Positions 48,023 through 54,492 of a stretch of 54,620 bases of DNA are shown here, piece after piece; within the stretch, counting starts at the first letter, position 1, and the number at the start of each line of letters is the position of its first letter. The notes beneath the pieces are model-generated. The model saw only the letters and a list, made by a program, of their open reading frames with translations. It ran no database searches and was not told the DNA's origin. Source of the stretch: Microvirga tunisiensis (GTDB lineage Bacteria > Pseudomonadota > Alphaproteobacteria > Rhizobiales > Beijerinckiaceae); contig NZ_VOSK01000019.1 of NCBI RefSeq assembly GCF_009296175.1, forward strand, positions 1-54,620, written 5' to 3'. Made by a program: the position numbers and the translations under genes.

Positions 48023-48682
48023 CTACACCGCCATCGCGAGGGCCGCGCGCACGTTCTCGACCACCTCGGCGCCGTGGAGCGCGGCATGTCCCAGGATCGC
48101 CTCCTCGGTGATCCCGTCCCGGCAGGCGTTCCGGATGATCTCCTGCATCGGCTCGCCGAGGAGCAGCGGGTCGAGTGTGCACTCGACGACCGCCCGGACC
48201 GGATCCGAGGCGAGGAGCGTACGGCCCTGCCCGTCGACCCGTACGGACGTCGCGACCGCCGGGTCCAGGGTGCACGGCATGACCCTCACCTCGAGGGCGC
48301 CGGCGAACTCCCTCACCTGGCCCTCCTCGGCGCCGGGGACGTAGACGTTGACCTCGGACGGGGGCTGGACCGACCAGCCGTAGCAGATCGCGGCGCTCAG
48401 CCCGCCCACGTGGCCGCCCGCAAGACGGGACGCGGCCGGTGCGTCGACGCCGGACCACCGGAACCCGTCGTCGGCGCCCGGGTGAAGGTCTGTTGCCTTG
48501 ATCAGCTTCGCCGCAGCCGCGGACTGGACGCCCTCCTTCTGCCAGCGGGCGACCGTCCGGCGCGAGACGCCGAGGTAGACACCCGTCTGGGTCAAGGACA
48601 GACCCGAACGGTCCATCCAGGCACGGAATGCGGGGGCTACCAGATATACGGTTGTCACGTTTGCGGCTCTAGGTGGTGTCAT
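48023..48682 (-). CDS. HTH-domain repressor-like protein
   Basis: A 219-residue protein with an N-terminal helix-turn-helix (SLTQTGVYLGVSRRTVARWQ, about 29-48) and an uncharacterised C-terminal domain of about 150 residues. ATG 48682 starts it; -35 TTGACA and -10 TAGTGT lie only a few bases upstream, so its mRNA may have no leader, as in several phage repressors. It is probably a DNA-binding autoregulator. Its promoter overlaps the 3' end of the small gene before it. Confidence 0.7.
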   Translation of the reverse strand: MTPPRAANVTTVYLVAPAFRAWMDRSGLSLTQTGVYLGVSRRTVARWQKEGVQSAAAAKLIKATDLHPGADDGFRWSGVDAPAASRLAGGHVGGLSAAICYGWSVQPPSEVNVYVPGAEEGQVREFAGALEVRVMPCTLDPAVATSVRVDGQGRTLLASDPVRAVVECTLDPLLLGEPMQEIIRNACRDGITEEAILGHAALHGAEVVENVRAALAMAV

Positions 48683-48686
48683 GGCG

Positions 48687-48715
48687 ACACTAGGAAGCTC
48701 GCAAGTCTTTGTCAA
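48687..48715 (-). promoter_or_regulatory. Leaderless-type promoter of the HTH gene
   Basis: Reading the minus strand, TTGACA (plus 48710-48715), 17 bases, TAGTGT (plus 48687-48692), four bases, then ATG at 48682. The expected start of transcription falls at or just inside the start codon. Near the -35 the sequence GTGACAATTGTTGACA contains near-inverted TGACAA half-sites. Confidence 0.45.
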
Positions 48716-48939
48716 CAATTGTCACGGTTGGACGGGTCCGCCAGCCCATGCTCCTCCGCCAGCGCCAGTAGCCGCCGGATGTCCCCGATCGCCTTCTCCA
48801 AGTCGGCGACCTGCTCGTGTAATGTTTTCACGACATCCGCTCGGATGACGTGCACGGCGTCGAGGACTACCCACTGACGCCTCCCGTCGCCGCGTCGAGC
48901 GAGGATGGCTTCGGTATCCCCTTCCATCCCGTCCACCAT
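48712..48939 (-). CDS. Small coiled-coil hypothetical protein
   Basis: A 75-residue frame (start ATG 48939, alternative ATG 48927) that ends with a heptad-like helix (VVKTLHEQVADLEKAIGDIR, then RLLALAEEHGL). The first part overlaps the 58-residue gene that reads in another frame, which is a heavy overlap, so one of the two may be spurious in that stretch. Codon use in the latter half is natural. Function unknown. Confidence 0.4.
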   Translation of the reverse strand: MVDGMEGDTEAILARRGDGRRQWVVLDAVHVIRADVVKTLHEQVADLEKAIGDIRRLLALAEEHGLADPSNRDNC

Positions 48940-50924: not shown

Positions 50925-51286
50925 GACAGCACCTCCGTCTCGCGCAGGCTCTCGTACGGCCGCCCCAGGCGATACCATCGGCTGAGGGTGCGCGCGCAGG
51001 AATGGTCCTCGGACATGATCCAGAGATCCGACGTCCGGATCGGGCGTCCGTTGCCAGGGAGTCGGGGATGGCCGGCGACGCCCCCAACGAGACAATCGAC
51101 GGGGAATTGCGCCCGGCTCCAGAAGTCCAGGACAGGTGCGTCCTTGAGCATGCTGTCCTCCGTCGGCACCGCGCCCACCCGGAGTGCCTTCAAGTCAGAG
51201 AGCAGCCCTTCGATCCTCCCGATCTCCTCGTCGAGATCCCGTCGGGTATCGGCTGTCAGCCCGTGGTGCCTGGTCAGTGTGAACAT
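50921..51286 (-). CDS. DUF6634-like protein
   Basis: A 121-residue protein. The core (APVLDFWSRAQFPVDCLVGG, then VAGHPRLPGNGRPIRTSDLW and ARTLSRWYRLGRP) resembles the DUF6634 family, small alphaproteobacterial proteins of unknown function common on plasmids. ATG 51286 has AAGGACG upstream. It is first in the three-gene minus operon. Confidence 0.6.
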   Translation of the reverse strand: MFTLTRHHGLTADTRRDLDEEIGRIEGLLSDLKALRVGAVPTEDSMLKDAPVLDFWSRAQFPVDCLVGGVAGHPRLPGNGRPIRTSDLWIMSEDHSCARTLSRWYRLGRPYESLRETEVLS

Positions 51287-51495
51287 GTCGCGTCCTTCGT
51301 TTCGACCCGGATTCCTATGGACGAAATCGGGGCGTTTGCCCGGAGCGGAATGTTGTGACAGTGGCGGTTTTCCCCGGAAACAGGCGGCAAGTGCCATGAG
51401 GGTCGGCAAGTGCATGCCCCCGGAAGTCGTCCTGACCTGATGACGGCGGGAAATCCATTCGCTATGGGAGGCGGATTCGATGGAACGCCAAGCGA

Positions 51496-51533
51496 GGTTG
51501 TCAGTTGACAACCCGTCTGGCCCCCTGCATATT
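51496..51533 (+). promoter_or_regulatory. Operator-overlapped promoter of the toxin-antitoxin-like pair
   Basis: GGTTGTCA (51496-51503), GT, TGACAACC (51506-51513) is a perfect 8-bp dyad that overlaps a consensus -35 TTGACA (51505-51510). A -10 CATATT (51528-51533) follows at the ideal 17 bases. ATG of the next gene is at 51551. A regulator bound here would block the polymerase, as in autoregulated toxin-antitoxin operons. Confidence 0.7.
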
Positions 51534-51550
51534 TCGAGGCACAGGACCAG

Positions 51551-51826
51551 ATGGCGAGGACTCGTCACACGGATAAGGACGTCGAGGCGGCGCTTCGACA
51601 TGCCGAGGCTAACGGCTGGCGCGTAGAGTTGGGCGGAAGTCACGCCTGGGGCAAGATCTACTGCCCCTACAACGATGATGAATGCCGATGCGGAGAGTTC
51701 TGCATCACAAGCGTATGGAGTACCCCCAGGAACGGGGGCACCCATGCGAAGCAGATTAGGCGGGTCGTCGACAATTGCACGACGCACAAGGCTGAACGCG
51801 AGAAGAAGAACGCCGAGAAGGATTGA
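51551..51826 (+). CDS. HicA-like small toxin candidate with Cys cluster
   Basis: A 91-residue basic protein. WRVELGGSHAWGKIYCP (about 23-39) resembles the HicA strand-turn with the catalytic GSH, followed by a Cys cluster (ECRCGEFC) and STPRNGGTHAKQIRRVVDNC, which parallels the later part of HicA domains. HicA toxins cut mRNA. The Cys cluster is not typical of HicA, so it is a distant or distinct family. It ends four bases before the HTH gene and follows a self-regulated-looking promoter. Confidence 0.6.
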   Translation: MARTRHTDKDVEAALRHAEANGWRVELGGSHAWGKIYCPYNDDECRCGEFCITSVWSTPRNGGTHAKQIRRVVDNCTTHKAEREKKNAEKD

Positions 51827-51830
51827 AGTG

Positions 51831-52346
51831 ATGATGGAATACACCTTCACCCTCAAGTACCGTCTCCCGGAGAACGAGACGGACATGGATTCGCTCGTGG
51901 AGCGCCTCGGCGAGGCCGGATGCACCGACGCCCTGATCGGCACCGGCACCCCCGGCCGTCTCGGACTCGAGTTCAGCCGTGAGGCGGAGACCGCACAGGA
52001 AGCCGTGCGCAGCGCGCTCGCTGACGTGAAAGCCGCCATCCCCGACGCGATCCTCGTCGAGGCCGGCCCCGATCTCGTCGGCCTCTCCGACATTGCCGGC
52101 TACATGGGCGTGACCCGCCAGAACATGCGCAAGTTCACGATCGCCAACCGCGATTTCCCGCTGCCCGTTCACGAGGGGTCTGCTGCCCTCTGGCACCTTG
52201 CCGACGTCCTCGCTTGGCTCGAGGCCCGCAAGGGCTATGAGCTGGACCAGGGCTTGCTTGAGACGGCCGCGGCTACCCTCGAGGTCAACACGGTCAAGGA
52301 AAGCCGTCGGCACTCAGTCCGGGGGCCCGGGAGCTGGAGCTCCTGA
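51831..52346 (+). CDS. HTH protein, candidate antitoxin paired with the HicA-like gene
   Basis: A 171-residue protein. Its N-terminus (YTFTLKYRLPENETDMDSLV, then GLEFSREAETAQEAVRSALA) looks like a HicB-like ferredoxin fold, and residues about 85-130 form an AlpA/MerR-type helix-turn-helix (DIAGYMGVTRQNMRKFTIAN, then LWHLADVLAWLEARKG). The combination would neutralise the toxin and bind the palindrome at 51496. ATG 51831 (or 51834) is four bases after the toxin stop. The C-terminal 20 residues look disordered. Confidence 0.65.
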   Translation: MMEYTFTLKYRLPENETDMDSLVERLGEAGCTDALIGTGTPGRLGLEFSREAETAQEAVRSALADVKAAIPDAILVEAGPDLVGLSDIAGYMGVTRQNMRKFTIANRDFPLPVHEGSAALWHLADVLAWLEARKGYELDQGLLETAAATLEVNTVKESRRHSVRGPGSWSS

Positions 52347-52603
52347 TCGCGTAGTGTCAGGCGTGTCGGGAGTGCACACACTCCTGGCACCCATAGCGGC
52401 CATCAGGCGGCGAGGAGGCCGACGTCCGACGTCCGTCGGCGGGAGGCCCAGGACCTCGGCGTCCGGGTGCAGGTCCGCCGCCAAGCATGATGCGTCCGTC
52501 GCCAGCCCTTCCAAGCTCTTGCGGATCTGTTCGTCGGTCAGGCCGGCCCTCCTTCCACAATCGCGGCAGGCGCTGGGAGTTGTCAGGACCTCGCGGCGTT
52601 GGC

Positions 52604-52648
52604 AAGGTGCCCCGAAGCAAGGCGCCCCGAAGCAAGGCGCCCCGAAAT
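52604..52648 (+). repeat. Three 15-bp tandem repeats
   Basis: AAGGTGCCCCGAAGC (52604-52618), AAGGCGCCCCGAAGC (52619-52633) and AAGGCGCCCCGAAAT (52634-52648) lie just before the ATG of the tail-anchored protein gene at 52670. The gap 52347-52669 otherwise holds no gene I can support. Confidence 0.85.
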
Positions 52649-52669
52649 CGGGGCTGATGGGGGCAATCA

Positions 52670-53602
52670 ATGGATTTACACCTGGAGCGCAGGCTGCGGC
52701 TACACACCGAGCCGGAGCACAAGAGCCTGTATTCCTGGGCGATCAACGAGTTCGACGAGCAGGGCCAGCAGATCGGTCACGACCGGATCCCCTGGGGCTG
52801 GACGCTGCGCTTCACTGCGACCGACGTCGTGCTCGGCCATGGCATCGAGATCAAGTCGGATTACCAGCCTGGGGAAGCCGCGTCGACGACGCGCGAGGTC
52901 ACGCAGCGCCAGGTCATCCGGGCGCAACTGCGGCCGGGCATCGCCCTGCACGACGGGGACTACCGCCGCATCAAGACTACCTTCTCGATGTTCGGGACCA
53001 ACCGGACCATTAAATGCTTCCAGCTCGACATCCACCCGCTCGCCGACCCCGCCGGGCAGGAGAGCTGCCGGGCATGGGGCATGGTGTCTTACACGTACGA
53101 AACGGACTTCAGGAACGAGACGACCGAGGACTGCGTCACCTTCGAGATGTTCGTGAAGCCGGAGACCTTCGCCCGCTACGCGGCGATGGTGGCCGACGGC
53201 TCGGTGGACGAGATGATCCTCAGCGTCGGGTTGGTGTCCGGCTTCTACTCGGAGTGGAGCCCCTCGATCTCCACCCACCACGTGAAGGTCCTGACCGAGG
53301 ACAAGGACCAGAGGGTTGACCTGCCGCCCGGCCTTCAGTTCGAGCCGCTTCGCCTCGGCCCCGTCGGTGATGCCACGCTGTCCGTCAATCGGATCCTCAC
53401 GATCGCCAAGCGGACGCCGGATCCCCAGCCTGTCGAGCCGACGACCAAGGCCGAGCCAGTGCCGGCCATCCCCGAGACGCCGGCACCGGAGATGGCGCTG
53501 ACGGACCCGCGGATCCTAAAGGCGTTGGGATCCCTGCGGCGGGCCGCGTGGTTCATCGTGGCCCTGTTGGCGCTGATCTTCGTCACGACGCTTTCTCGAT
53601 AA
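52670..53602 (+). CDS. Tail-anchored hypothetical protein
   Basis: A 310-residue protein: a soluble domain of about 235 residues with many aromatic and acidic residues (WAINEFDEQGQQIGHDRIPW, IEIKSDYQPGEAASTTREVT), a Pro/Glu linker (PEPVPAIPETPAPE-like, about 250-275) and a single C-terminal membrane helix (RRAAWFIVALLALIFVTTLS). No family recognised. It probably sits on the cytoplasmic face of the membrane. It ends 23 bases before the AT-rich gene on the same strand; the abrupt change in base composition is at that junction. Confidence 0.65.
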   Translation: MDLHLERRLRLHTEPEHKSLYSWAINEFDEQGQQIGHDRIPWGWTLRFTATDVVLGHGIEIKSDYQPGEAASTTREVTQRQVIRAQLRPGIALHDGDYRRIKTTFSMFGTNRTIKCFQLDIHPLADPAGQESCRAWGMVSYTYETDFRNETTEDCVTFEMFVKPETFARYAAMVADGSVDEMILSVGLVSGFYSEWSPSISTHHVKVLTEDKDQRVDLPPGLQFEPLRLGPVGDATLSVNRILTIAKRTPDPQPVEPTTKAEPVPAIPETPAPEMALTDPRILKALGSLRRAAWFIVALLALIFVTTLSR

Positions 53603-53625: not shown

Positions 53626-54492
53626 ATGGGTGAAAAAATTTTTGAGGTAGAGAAAGATGATATATCTATCTCAAACCTAAGTGCATTCGATATACATAAT
53701 ATTCTGATCAGAACCAGAGGAAAAGACTCGCCTGAGAGTCTATGGTTCAGGGTTATGCCTGACTCAAATATTCTATATATACAACAGAAAGATTGGAGTT
53801 ATAACGATCCCGAATTCGCTATAACTTGCTATCGTGATATAGAATATTTACGTGGCATCAAAAAATACAGCGGAAGAGGATTCCGCTGGAGCATCTCAGC
53901 TAAGTACAGTACTGTAAGAAAAGATTACAGCACCATTCGTAATGATCTTTCCCTTTCTTATGTACACCGAGTAGGTGCGCTGCTTCTAATAAACAAGATG
54001 CAATGTGTTAAATTAAGCATAAATGAACGAGACAATAATCTATCAGAGTTTTCTAATTACTATCTTGGTGTTAAGGAAAATTTGAAGAACACGCAAACAT
54101 GGATCAGCGGTAAGCTAGAAATGCGCGCTGATTGTAGCTGCGGGCATTCTGGCATTGTTAAAAACACTGTATTATCAGCCTTATTTAGCCGAGGACTATC
54201 TATTGAAGATATCAAGTCTCGCCTAAAATGTGATGATTGTGGAAGTAAAGAACATTTAGAGATCATGTCTTTATACAATGAAAATACGCCTTCAGAATTC
54301 AGACATGAAATATATTGGCCTAATGATAAGCGTCCGAGATCTGGAAGTATTCTTGAATCTAGTAAAATATTTTCTCATCGCAATCCTGAGCTCGAAGGAA
54401 TGTACAAAAATCTAGGCGGCGATGGAGAAGGTCCAGTTTATCTCGGGGACGGGGCTTACCTGTCCTCATCCGGTGAGGTATTCGATGATTAG
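53626..54492 (+). CDS. AT-rich zinc-finger protein, probably horizontally acquired
   Basis: A 288-residue protein in a stretch of about 38 % GC, far below its surroundings. It has a C-x-C-G-H (DCSCGHSG, about 164-171) and, 30 residues on, CDDCGSKEH, a possible zinc-binding pair with a helix (LSIEDIKSRLKC) between. Codon use is AT-biased (ATA, AGA) apart from the last 20 codons, which read DGEGPVYLGDGAYLSSSGEV and are GC-richer. The stop TAG at 54490-54492 coincides with the first three bases of the IS481 copy, so the end may be made by the insertion. No family recognised. Confidence 0.6.
   Translation: MGEKIFEVEKDDISISNLSAFDIHNILIRTRGKDSPESLWFRVMPDSNILYIQQKDWSYNDPEFAITCYRDIEYLRGIKKYSGRGFRWSISAKYSTVRKDYSTIRNDLSLSYVHRVGALLLINKMQCVKLSINERDNNLSEFSNYYLGVKENLKNTQTWISGKLEMRADCSCGHSGIVKNTVLSALFSRGLSIEDIKSRLKCDDCGSKEHLEIMSLYNENTPSEFRHEIYWPNDKRPRSGSILESSKIFSHRNPELEGMYKNLGGDGEGPVYLGDGAYLSSSGEVFDD

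Follow-up and report, generated by a model that had tools for sequence, protein, structure and literature searches.

PDC-M06 at a Microvirga tunisiensis locus, a putative toxin-antitoxin pair with an operator-like palindrome over its promoter

The gene pair and its family

The window analysed here, a 54,620-nt stretch of Microvirga tunisiensis DNA (NCBI RefSeq assembly GCF_009296175.1, contig NZ_VOSK01000019.1, positions 1 to 54,620 of the forward strand), carries near its end two adjacent genes on the plus strand, gene A (51551..51826, 91 aa) for a HicA-like putative toxin that probably has a metal site, and gene B (51831..52346, 171 aa) for a putative antitoxin and autorepressor. The genes are separated by 4 nt (51827-51830), counted to the first ATG of B at 51831; a second ATG lies at 51834. 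Gene A is preceded by a perfect 8+2+8 dyad, GGTTGTCA-GT-TGACAACC (51496..51513), the presumed operator of the pair, the right half of which is the -35 box of a sigma-70-like promoter, TTGACA-17-CATATT (51505..51533, plus strand), recognized by promoter scan and by a layout shared with relatives. With up to 3 mismatches allowed, the dyad had no other match in the window (shuffled windows gave a mean of 0.13 matches, and 11 of 100 shuffles at least one), and TTGACA at 51505 with CATATT ending at 51533 was the sole sigma-70-like site on either strand between 51300 and 52700 (shuffle mean 0.3). The preliminary description of this DNA, made from the sequence alone, had proposed a new toxin-antitoxin pair of a Cys-cluster HicA-like protein and a HicB-like helix-turn-helix (HTH) protein; the perfect dyad over a consensus -35 with a 17-base spacer, the four-base gap and a larger partner with a predicted winged HTH were all found at the locus.

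In PADLOC, A matched PDC-M06A (E = 6e-50) and the adjacent B matched PDC-M06B (E = 1e-72), each over nearly the full length, and distant copies of A and B likewise matched the PDC-M06 families. Pfam and NCBIfam gave no useful match for either protein. Judged by these matches, the A-B pair is a member of the already catalogued two-gene defence candidate PDC-M06. To our knowledge, PDC-M06 is known as a catalogue entry only, and the string 'PDC-M06' was found in no main text of an open-licence library, supplements being outside that search. The pair is also carried by the phage-plasmids SSU5 (SSU5_055/054) and Cyrano (CYRAN_51/50), where PADLOC families and gene order are as in the window. In PMC9928086 the Cyrano genes carry the labels 'HicA toxin protein' and 'putative antitoxin HicB', and a table of lysogen genes whose expression exceeds the local prophage background lists them with values, relative to that background, of 30 (HicA) and 14 (HicB). 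Because of the PADLOC entry and the published Cyrano label, the pair could not be retained as new.

A total of 398 genomes of the window's phylum and 14 control genomes were scanned with A and B. At E ≤ 0.001, 26 of the 398 genomes had A and 33 had B, and neither occurred in any of the 14 controls. At E ≤ 1e-10, each of the 23 A matches was followed by B in the same orientation, and A accompanied 23 of 27 B matches (Fisher 2e-34); the two genes lay within 50 nt in 22 of these pairs, the other being G262, with a distance of 287 nt and A in two pieces. Three weaker A matches (E 3e-5 to 4e-4) with no B match nearby were excluded from the pairing count. Four strong B matches had no A (two nearly full length; G257 at a contig end; the DNA preceding the lone B of G142 inspected by eye only), and there was no strong A without B. 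A second set comprised the best 80 of at least 424 loci confirmed from a scan with B, in which close relatives (59-70% identity) dominate; an A open reading frame (ORF) stood immediately upstream in 80/80, mostly with 3-4 nt between it and the B match, and was split in one (L088). Relatives in a protein collection at E ≤ 0.001 numbered 1073 for A and 2562 for B, and among the 120 matches listed for each, the source names of B relatives include 'helix-turn-helix transcriptional regulator'. The pairing elsewhere that the preliminary description expected was thus borne out, and adjacent, co-oriented and co-occurring small genes were found, as in type II toxin-antitoxin systems.

Among five viral loci found via B, two had A. 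In the other three viral contigs, B was reduced to its N-terminal domain and lacked the HTH (L145:5739-6243, L146:839-1126, L147:5959-6222), and the ORF just before the truncated B of L145 resembled only the C-terminal part of A; the truncated forms may be remnants of gene decay or neutralisers that work on their own. Two more ORFs like degenerate N-terminal B domains were seen by eye in L098 (8580-9411), beyond the complete pair near guaA.

Predicted structures of the two proteins

The AlphaFold2 model of B (mean predicted local distance difference test score, pLDDT, 90.5) comprises a predicted ferredoxin-like N-terminal domain (residues ~1-81), a winged HTH (~81-135) and a long C-terminal helix. 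The order predicted for the N-terminus is beta-alpha-beta-beta-alpha-beta, and its structural matches were ferredoxin-like folds; the N-terminus of HicB has a partial RNase H-like fold. Comparison of B with 18 HicB proteins in hhalign gave 1.1% over 36 columns, and no PF15919 match at E ≤ 0.001 was obtained in the host genome (G000). The 'HicB-like' designation was therefore abandoned on the profile comparison, with which the predicted fold agrees, although by itself the fold excludes nothing. HicB (PF15919) is likewise a toxin-adjacent gene with a DNA-binding domain, and B appears from sequence and model to be an antitoxin of a different build. B matched phrog_2620 (E = 2.6e-21), labelled 'excisionase and transcriptional regulator' in the PHROG library, and shares a predicted winged HTH with such AlpA/MerR-type regulators, but differs from them by the extra N-terminal domain and gave no match to AlpA (PF05930) in Pfam at E ≤ 1. 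The last ~10 codons of the window B (52300-52346) are in a different frame from relatives such as P0122; this tail lies beyond the conserved part (PADLOC match 2-162), and pLDDT is low there.

HicA has a double-stranded RNA-binding domain (dsRBD) fold and RNase activity with a catalytic His in a G-S-H motif. The AlphaFold2 model of A (mean pLDDT 84) has the element order helix-strand-strand-strand-helix that is expected of HicA, and HicA chains were among its best structural matches, every one at low Z; HicA-like viral entries were also matched. The predicted fold of A thus weakly resembles HicA. The structure 7lw0 is that of a terminase small subunit. A sequence-level assignment to HicA was rejected: A gave no PF07927 match in Pfam at E ≤ 1, searches of NCBIfam and PDB sequences were negative, and the host genome had no PF07927 match at E ≤ 0.001. 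Profile-profile comparison was weak, the expected register being obtained in only one comparison (16%), while in the other two the N-terminal HPxKEI of A was paired with the late HPxKDI of HicA, against the expected order. PF07927 has 58 model positions compared with 91 residues in A, which in addition has a predicted metal site in a loop. One distant A weakly matched the PADLOC 'HicA-like' family (E = 0.009); for the distant A of L020, the best Pfam match was RuBisCO_small (E = 0.003, under the cut-off), which was taken as chance. Of the HicA-like character proposed earlier, the element order and weak structural matches remain, and support from Pfam, NCBIfam and PDB sequences does not.

The window A contains a GGSH motif and C38/C45/C47/C51 plus C76. 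Its H31, the candidate counterpart of the HicA His, was invariant in 117 aligned A proteins and in 21 divergent ones; the constant part across the divergent members is His, then x, then usually W/F/Y, rather than GSH, so the GSH motif first noted holds for the window copy and only in part for the family. A metal-site survey covered 235 A proteins, 210 of which could be placed with a pattern that ends in, and thus requires, the late Cys. Among these 210, position 38 was Cys in 209 (Phe in L019), and two or more Cys or His residues were present in the loop between beta2 and beta3 of every one; 196 had 3-4 Cys there, 7 had two His and no Cys, and 7 had other mixes. The 25 unplaced proteins deviated from the pattern chiefly in its HA or WSTP letters and by eye kept the Cys cluster; one of them, P0053, has Tyr in place of the late Cys. 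The Cys cluster of the preliminary description is therefore present in the window copy, while some members have His or fewer Cys. As Cys is exchanged for His at one position, a structural zinc site is suggested, and judged by these sequences A probably carries a metal site with Cys/His exchange in the loop. In the AlphaFold2 model, this loop is of low confidence.

The operator-like dyad: core and arms

The consensus GTTGTCN4GACAAC was sought in 83 upstream regions (the window, 80 genome loci and 2 viral loci) and found before A with at most 2 mismatches in 80 (0 in 75, 1 in 2, 2 in 3), the other 3 lying beyond this limit; the dyad mostly starts 45-60 nt ahead of A. Removal of regions without complete arms left 79, and removal of those at least 85% identical left 52 non-redundant dyads, in which the right half is TTGACA in all but one (L078). 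The operator-like dyad overlapping the pair's own promoter, first described in the window, is thus family-wide. In distant loci both half-sites are changed, in a symmetrical way that gives TTGACA..TGTCAA, with the -35 box shifted to the left half.

This change tracks the HTH type of B. Among 116 rows, not independent as several loci recur in both genome sets, all 16 B proteins with a long HTH loop had TTGACA..TGTCAA with at most 1 mismatch, while the 94 with a short loop had TTGTCA..TGACAA in 86, the second type in 1 and neither at threshold in 7, three of which were Methylobacterium dyads altered on both sides; the remaining 6 rows had no called B, and all were of the first type. In the SSU5 and Cyrano pairs, B has the longer loop, the dyad is of the second type, and A has two loop His and no Cys cluster, in each respect unlike the window pair. 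As dyad type follows the HTH type, B is likely coupled to the site; the split of B into clades was a pattern written after the data were seen, and the switch may be a single ancestral event, so caution is needed. As in type II systems, a DNA-binding antitoxin and an operator over its own promoter appear to be combined here, by sequence and model only.

The host genome contained no convincing second site of the core dyad. Perfect TTGTCANNTGACAA sites numbered three in this genome, the window site and two that by eye lie by replication/partition-like ORFs. In L160 (G000:C344), two TTGTCACCTGACAA palindromes are located 1.4 kb apart, at 2261 and 3668, by plasmid replication/partition-like ORFs, and are probably partition sites and not operators of the A-B family.

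Symmetry extends beyond the core in many relatives. In the 52 dyads, positions 10-13 from the centre were complementary in 140 of 208 cells (permutation mean 69, maximum 94), with four pair types at positions 11 and 12 and three at 10 and 13. Over the six pairs of positions 9-14, 72.8% were paired compared with 51.3% in shuffles (0/500 as high), and the covariation score was 0.53 compared with 0.21 (0/500 as high; at most 0.19 when slid). Two of five covariation measures were not above shuffles (both-side-changed pairs, 180/500; further pair types, 234/500), and the covariation tool cautions that relatedness among sequences can by itself give values above those of shuffles. The window copy itself has no extended arms (3/7 pairs).

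An RNA hairpin was rejected as the source of this symmetry. G-U occurred in 7 of 208 cells at positions 10-13 (permutation mean 21), its other-strand equivalent in 13 (mean 24), and G-U made up 10% of non-Watson-Crick cells compared with 15%; no Rfam match was obtained in 51000-53000, and no terminator-like site was found. As G-U was not enriched, the arm symmetry was taken to arise at the DNA level. A terminator of the upstream integrase was rejected likewise, as no T-run was seen and the arms are just slightly more extended where an integrase lies upstream (4.48/7 pairs compared with 3.21/7 otherwise).

At some loci B is nearly identical and the arms differ, each being largely paired; between L111 and L121/L138, a two-sided change lies far out in ~20-bp arms, and B is 95-96% identical. 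Similarity of the outer arms rose with B identity (Spearman 0.28), and the left arms shared 5.3 of 6 bases at B identity above 95%, 2.8 at 90-95% and 1.6-1.8 below 80%, where the right arms shared 1.6-2.4. The view that the arms covary through coevolving B specificity is weakened but keeps some plausibility, as arm similarity does rise with B identity. Template-switch repair, selection on symmetry, changes in B specificity, or several of these are candidate sources, and template-switch correction of quasipalindromes, a mechanism treated in PMC7202029, would be the plainest explanation. Selection for symmetry, with a DNA form (cruciform or hairpin) or a symmetry-reading B complex being recognized, is a tentative idea that we think has the odds against it; if true, it would be a mode of control not met for toxin-antitoxin operators in the open-licence papers searched. 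The drifting yet inverted arms raise the question of how such palindromes are maintained.

Genomic setting and interpretation

Neighbour clusters of the 80 genome loci comprised a tyrosine integrase in 45, guaA in 32, guaB in 29 and an antisense AlpA in 33; because of short contigs these are minimum counts, and one representative per cluster was checked with Pfam. The integrase stop precedes A by 52-65 nt in 29 of the 45 loci and by 77-209 nt in 15; in the remaining locus it is more distant. Inspection by eye of 19 loci outside the integrase cluster showed guaA upstream in L094 and L098 too, and varied genes around the others. A was found in 52 plasmid records and in 3 phage records, two of which are the same phage. 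The SSU5 pair region occurred in 26 of 5426 E. coli genomes, plasmid-borne every time, with 2 covering at least 80% of the query. This context fits a module that stabilises mobile elements.

Eight loci (L128, L129, L131, L132, L134, L136, L139 and L140) share a long second palindrome ~107 nt before A, and clusters of downstream neighbours were found that each span 8 loci, presumably the same ones; the eight are perhaps one recently spread island. In the window, no integrase was found among the Pfam-tested upstream ORFs in 45-51 kb. An ORF at 48023-48718 (minus strand, 231 aa) has an HTH and weak similarity to AbiEi antitoxin (PADLOC AbiEi, E = 7e-5; Pfam AbiEi_1, E = 0.0024, under the cut-off), and nearby ORFs had no Pfam match. 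The ORF at 53626-54492 (plus strand) has a GC content at third codon positions of 0.33, compared with 0.6-0.9 for most neighbours, possibly pointing to foreign DNA close to the window end.

We consider it the best explanation, with a probability of roughly 60%, that A-B is an autoregulated type II-style toxin-antitoxin module with a HicA-like putative toxin and a non-HicB antitoxin, stabilising mobile elements. A dimer of B would bind the dyad via the winged HTH and repress the operon, probably more strongly when bound to A, which would be held and masked by the ferredoxin-like domain. A would be a HicA/dsRBD-like protein stapled by a metal ion through C38, two Cys/His of the beta2-beta3 loop and C76, and would act on RNA through H31. 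Loss of the element, or an attack lowering B, would free A and stop growth; freed A would thereby secure the retention of mobile islands and phage-plasmids by the cell, and may also abort infection by phages.

PDC-M06 could instead be primarily anti-phage, with A as effector and B as sensor and repressor rather than a maintenance module. PADLOC lists both proteins as a phage-defence candidate, and the AbiEi-like ORF lies ~3 kb off; however, the pair is carried by the phage-plasmids SSU5 and Cyrano themselves, and the commonest neighbours are integrase, guaA/guaB and AlpA, among neighbours not scanned against PADLOC. We regard a primarily anti-phage role as unlikely, and it would be compatible with a toxin-antitoxin mode of action.

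It is less likely still that the two proteins form a non-toxic regulatory couple, with A serving B as a metal-binding co-repressor or sensor. Such a couple would account for the conserved Cys/His ligand set of A and for the matching of dyad to B type, but a search of the host genome for the core dyad gave no convincing site besides that of the window, and the occurrence of lone B with no lone A fits a toxin-antitoxin pair better.

Doubtful to a slightly greater degree is the view of B as an excisionase (directionality factor) or regulator of the adjacent integrase, with A as an accessory and no toxin involved. Although the phrog_2620 match and the closeness of the integrase stop to A suggest it, 29 of the 52 non-redundant operators lie outside the integrase cluster (at least 3 of these 29 being contig-limited, and at least L094 having an integrase-like fragment by eye), no integrase is annotated in the 8-kb regions around the SSU5 and Cyrano pairs, the AlpA gene of 33/80 loci is a separate one, and the dyad overlaps the promoter of A. 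That the pair is an ordinary HicAB module is very improbable, as the Cyrano annotation, the distant 'HicA-like' match and the HicA structural matches stand against the lack of Pfam HicA similarity in A, the lack of PF07927 and PF15919 in the host genome, and a B with 1% in the HicB profile comparison and a different predicted N-terminal topology.

Taken together, this analysis supplements the toxin-antitoxin reading of PDC-M06 with a logic for the operator, a predicted build for the antitoxin, a probable metal site and a setting on mobile islands. The family is widespread, with at least 424 confirmed relatives, on guaA islands, plasmids and phage-plasmids, and the analysis offers a testable model of a HicA-like putative toxin under an antitoxin of different build and a two-type operator, with H31, C38/C76 and the loop ligands as named residues.
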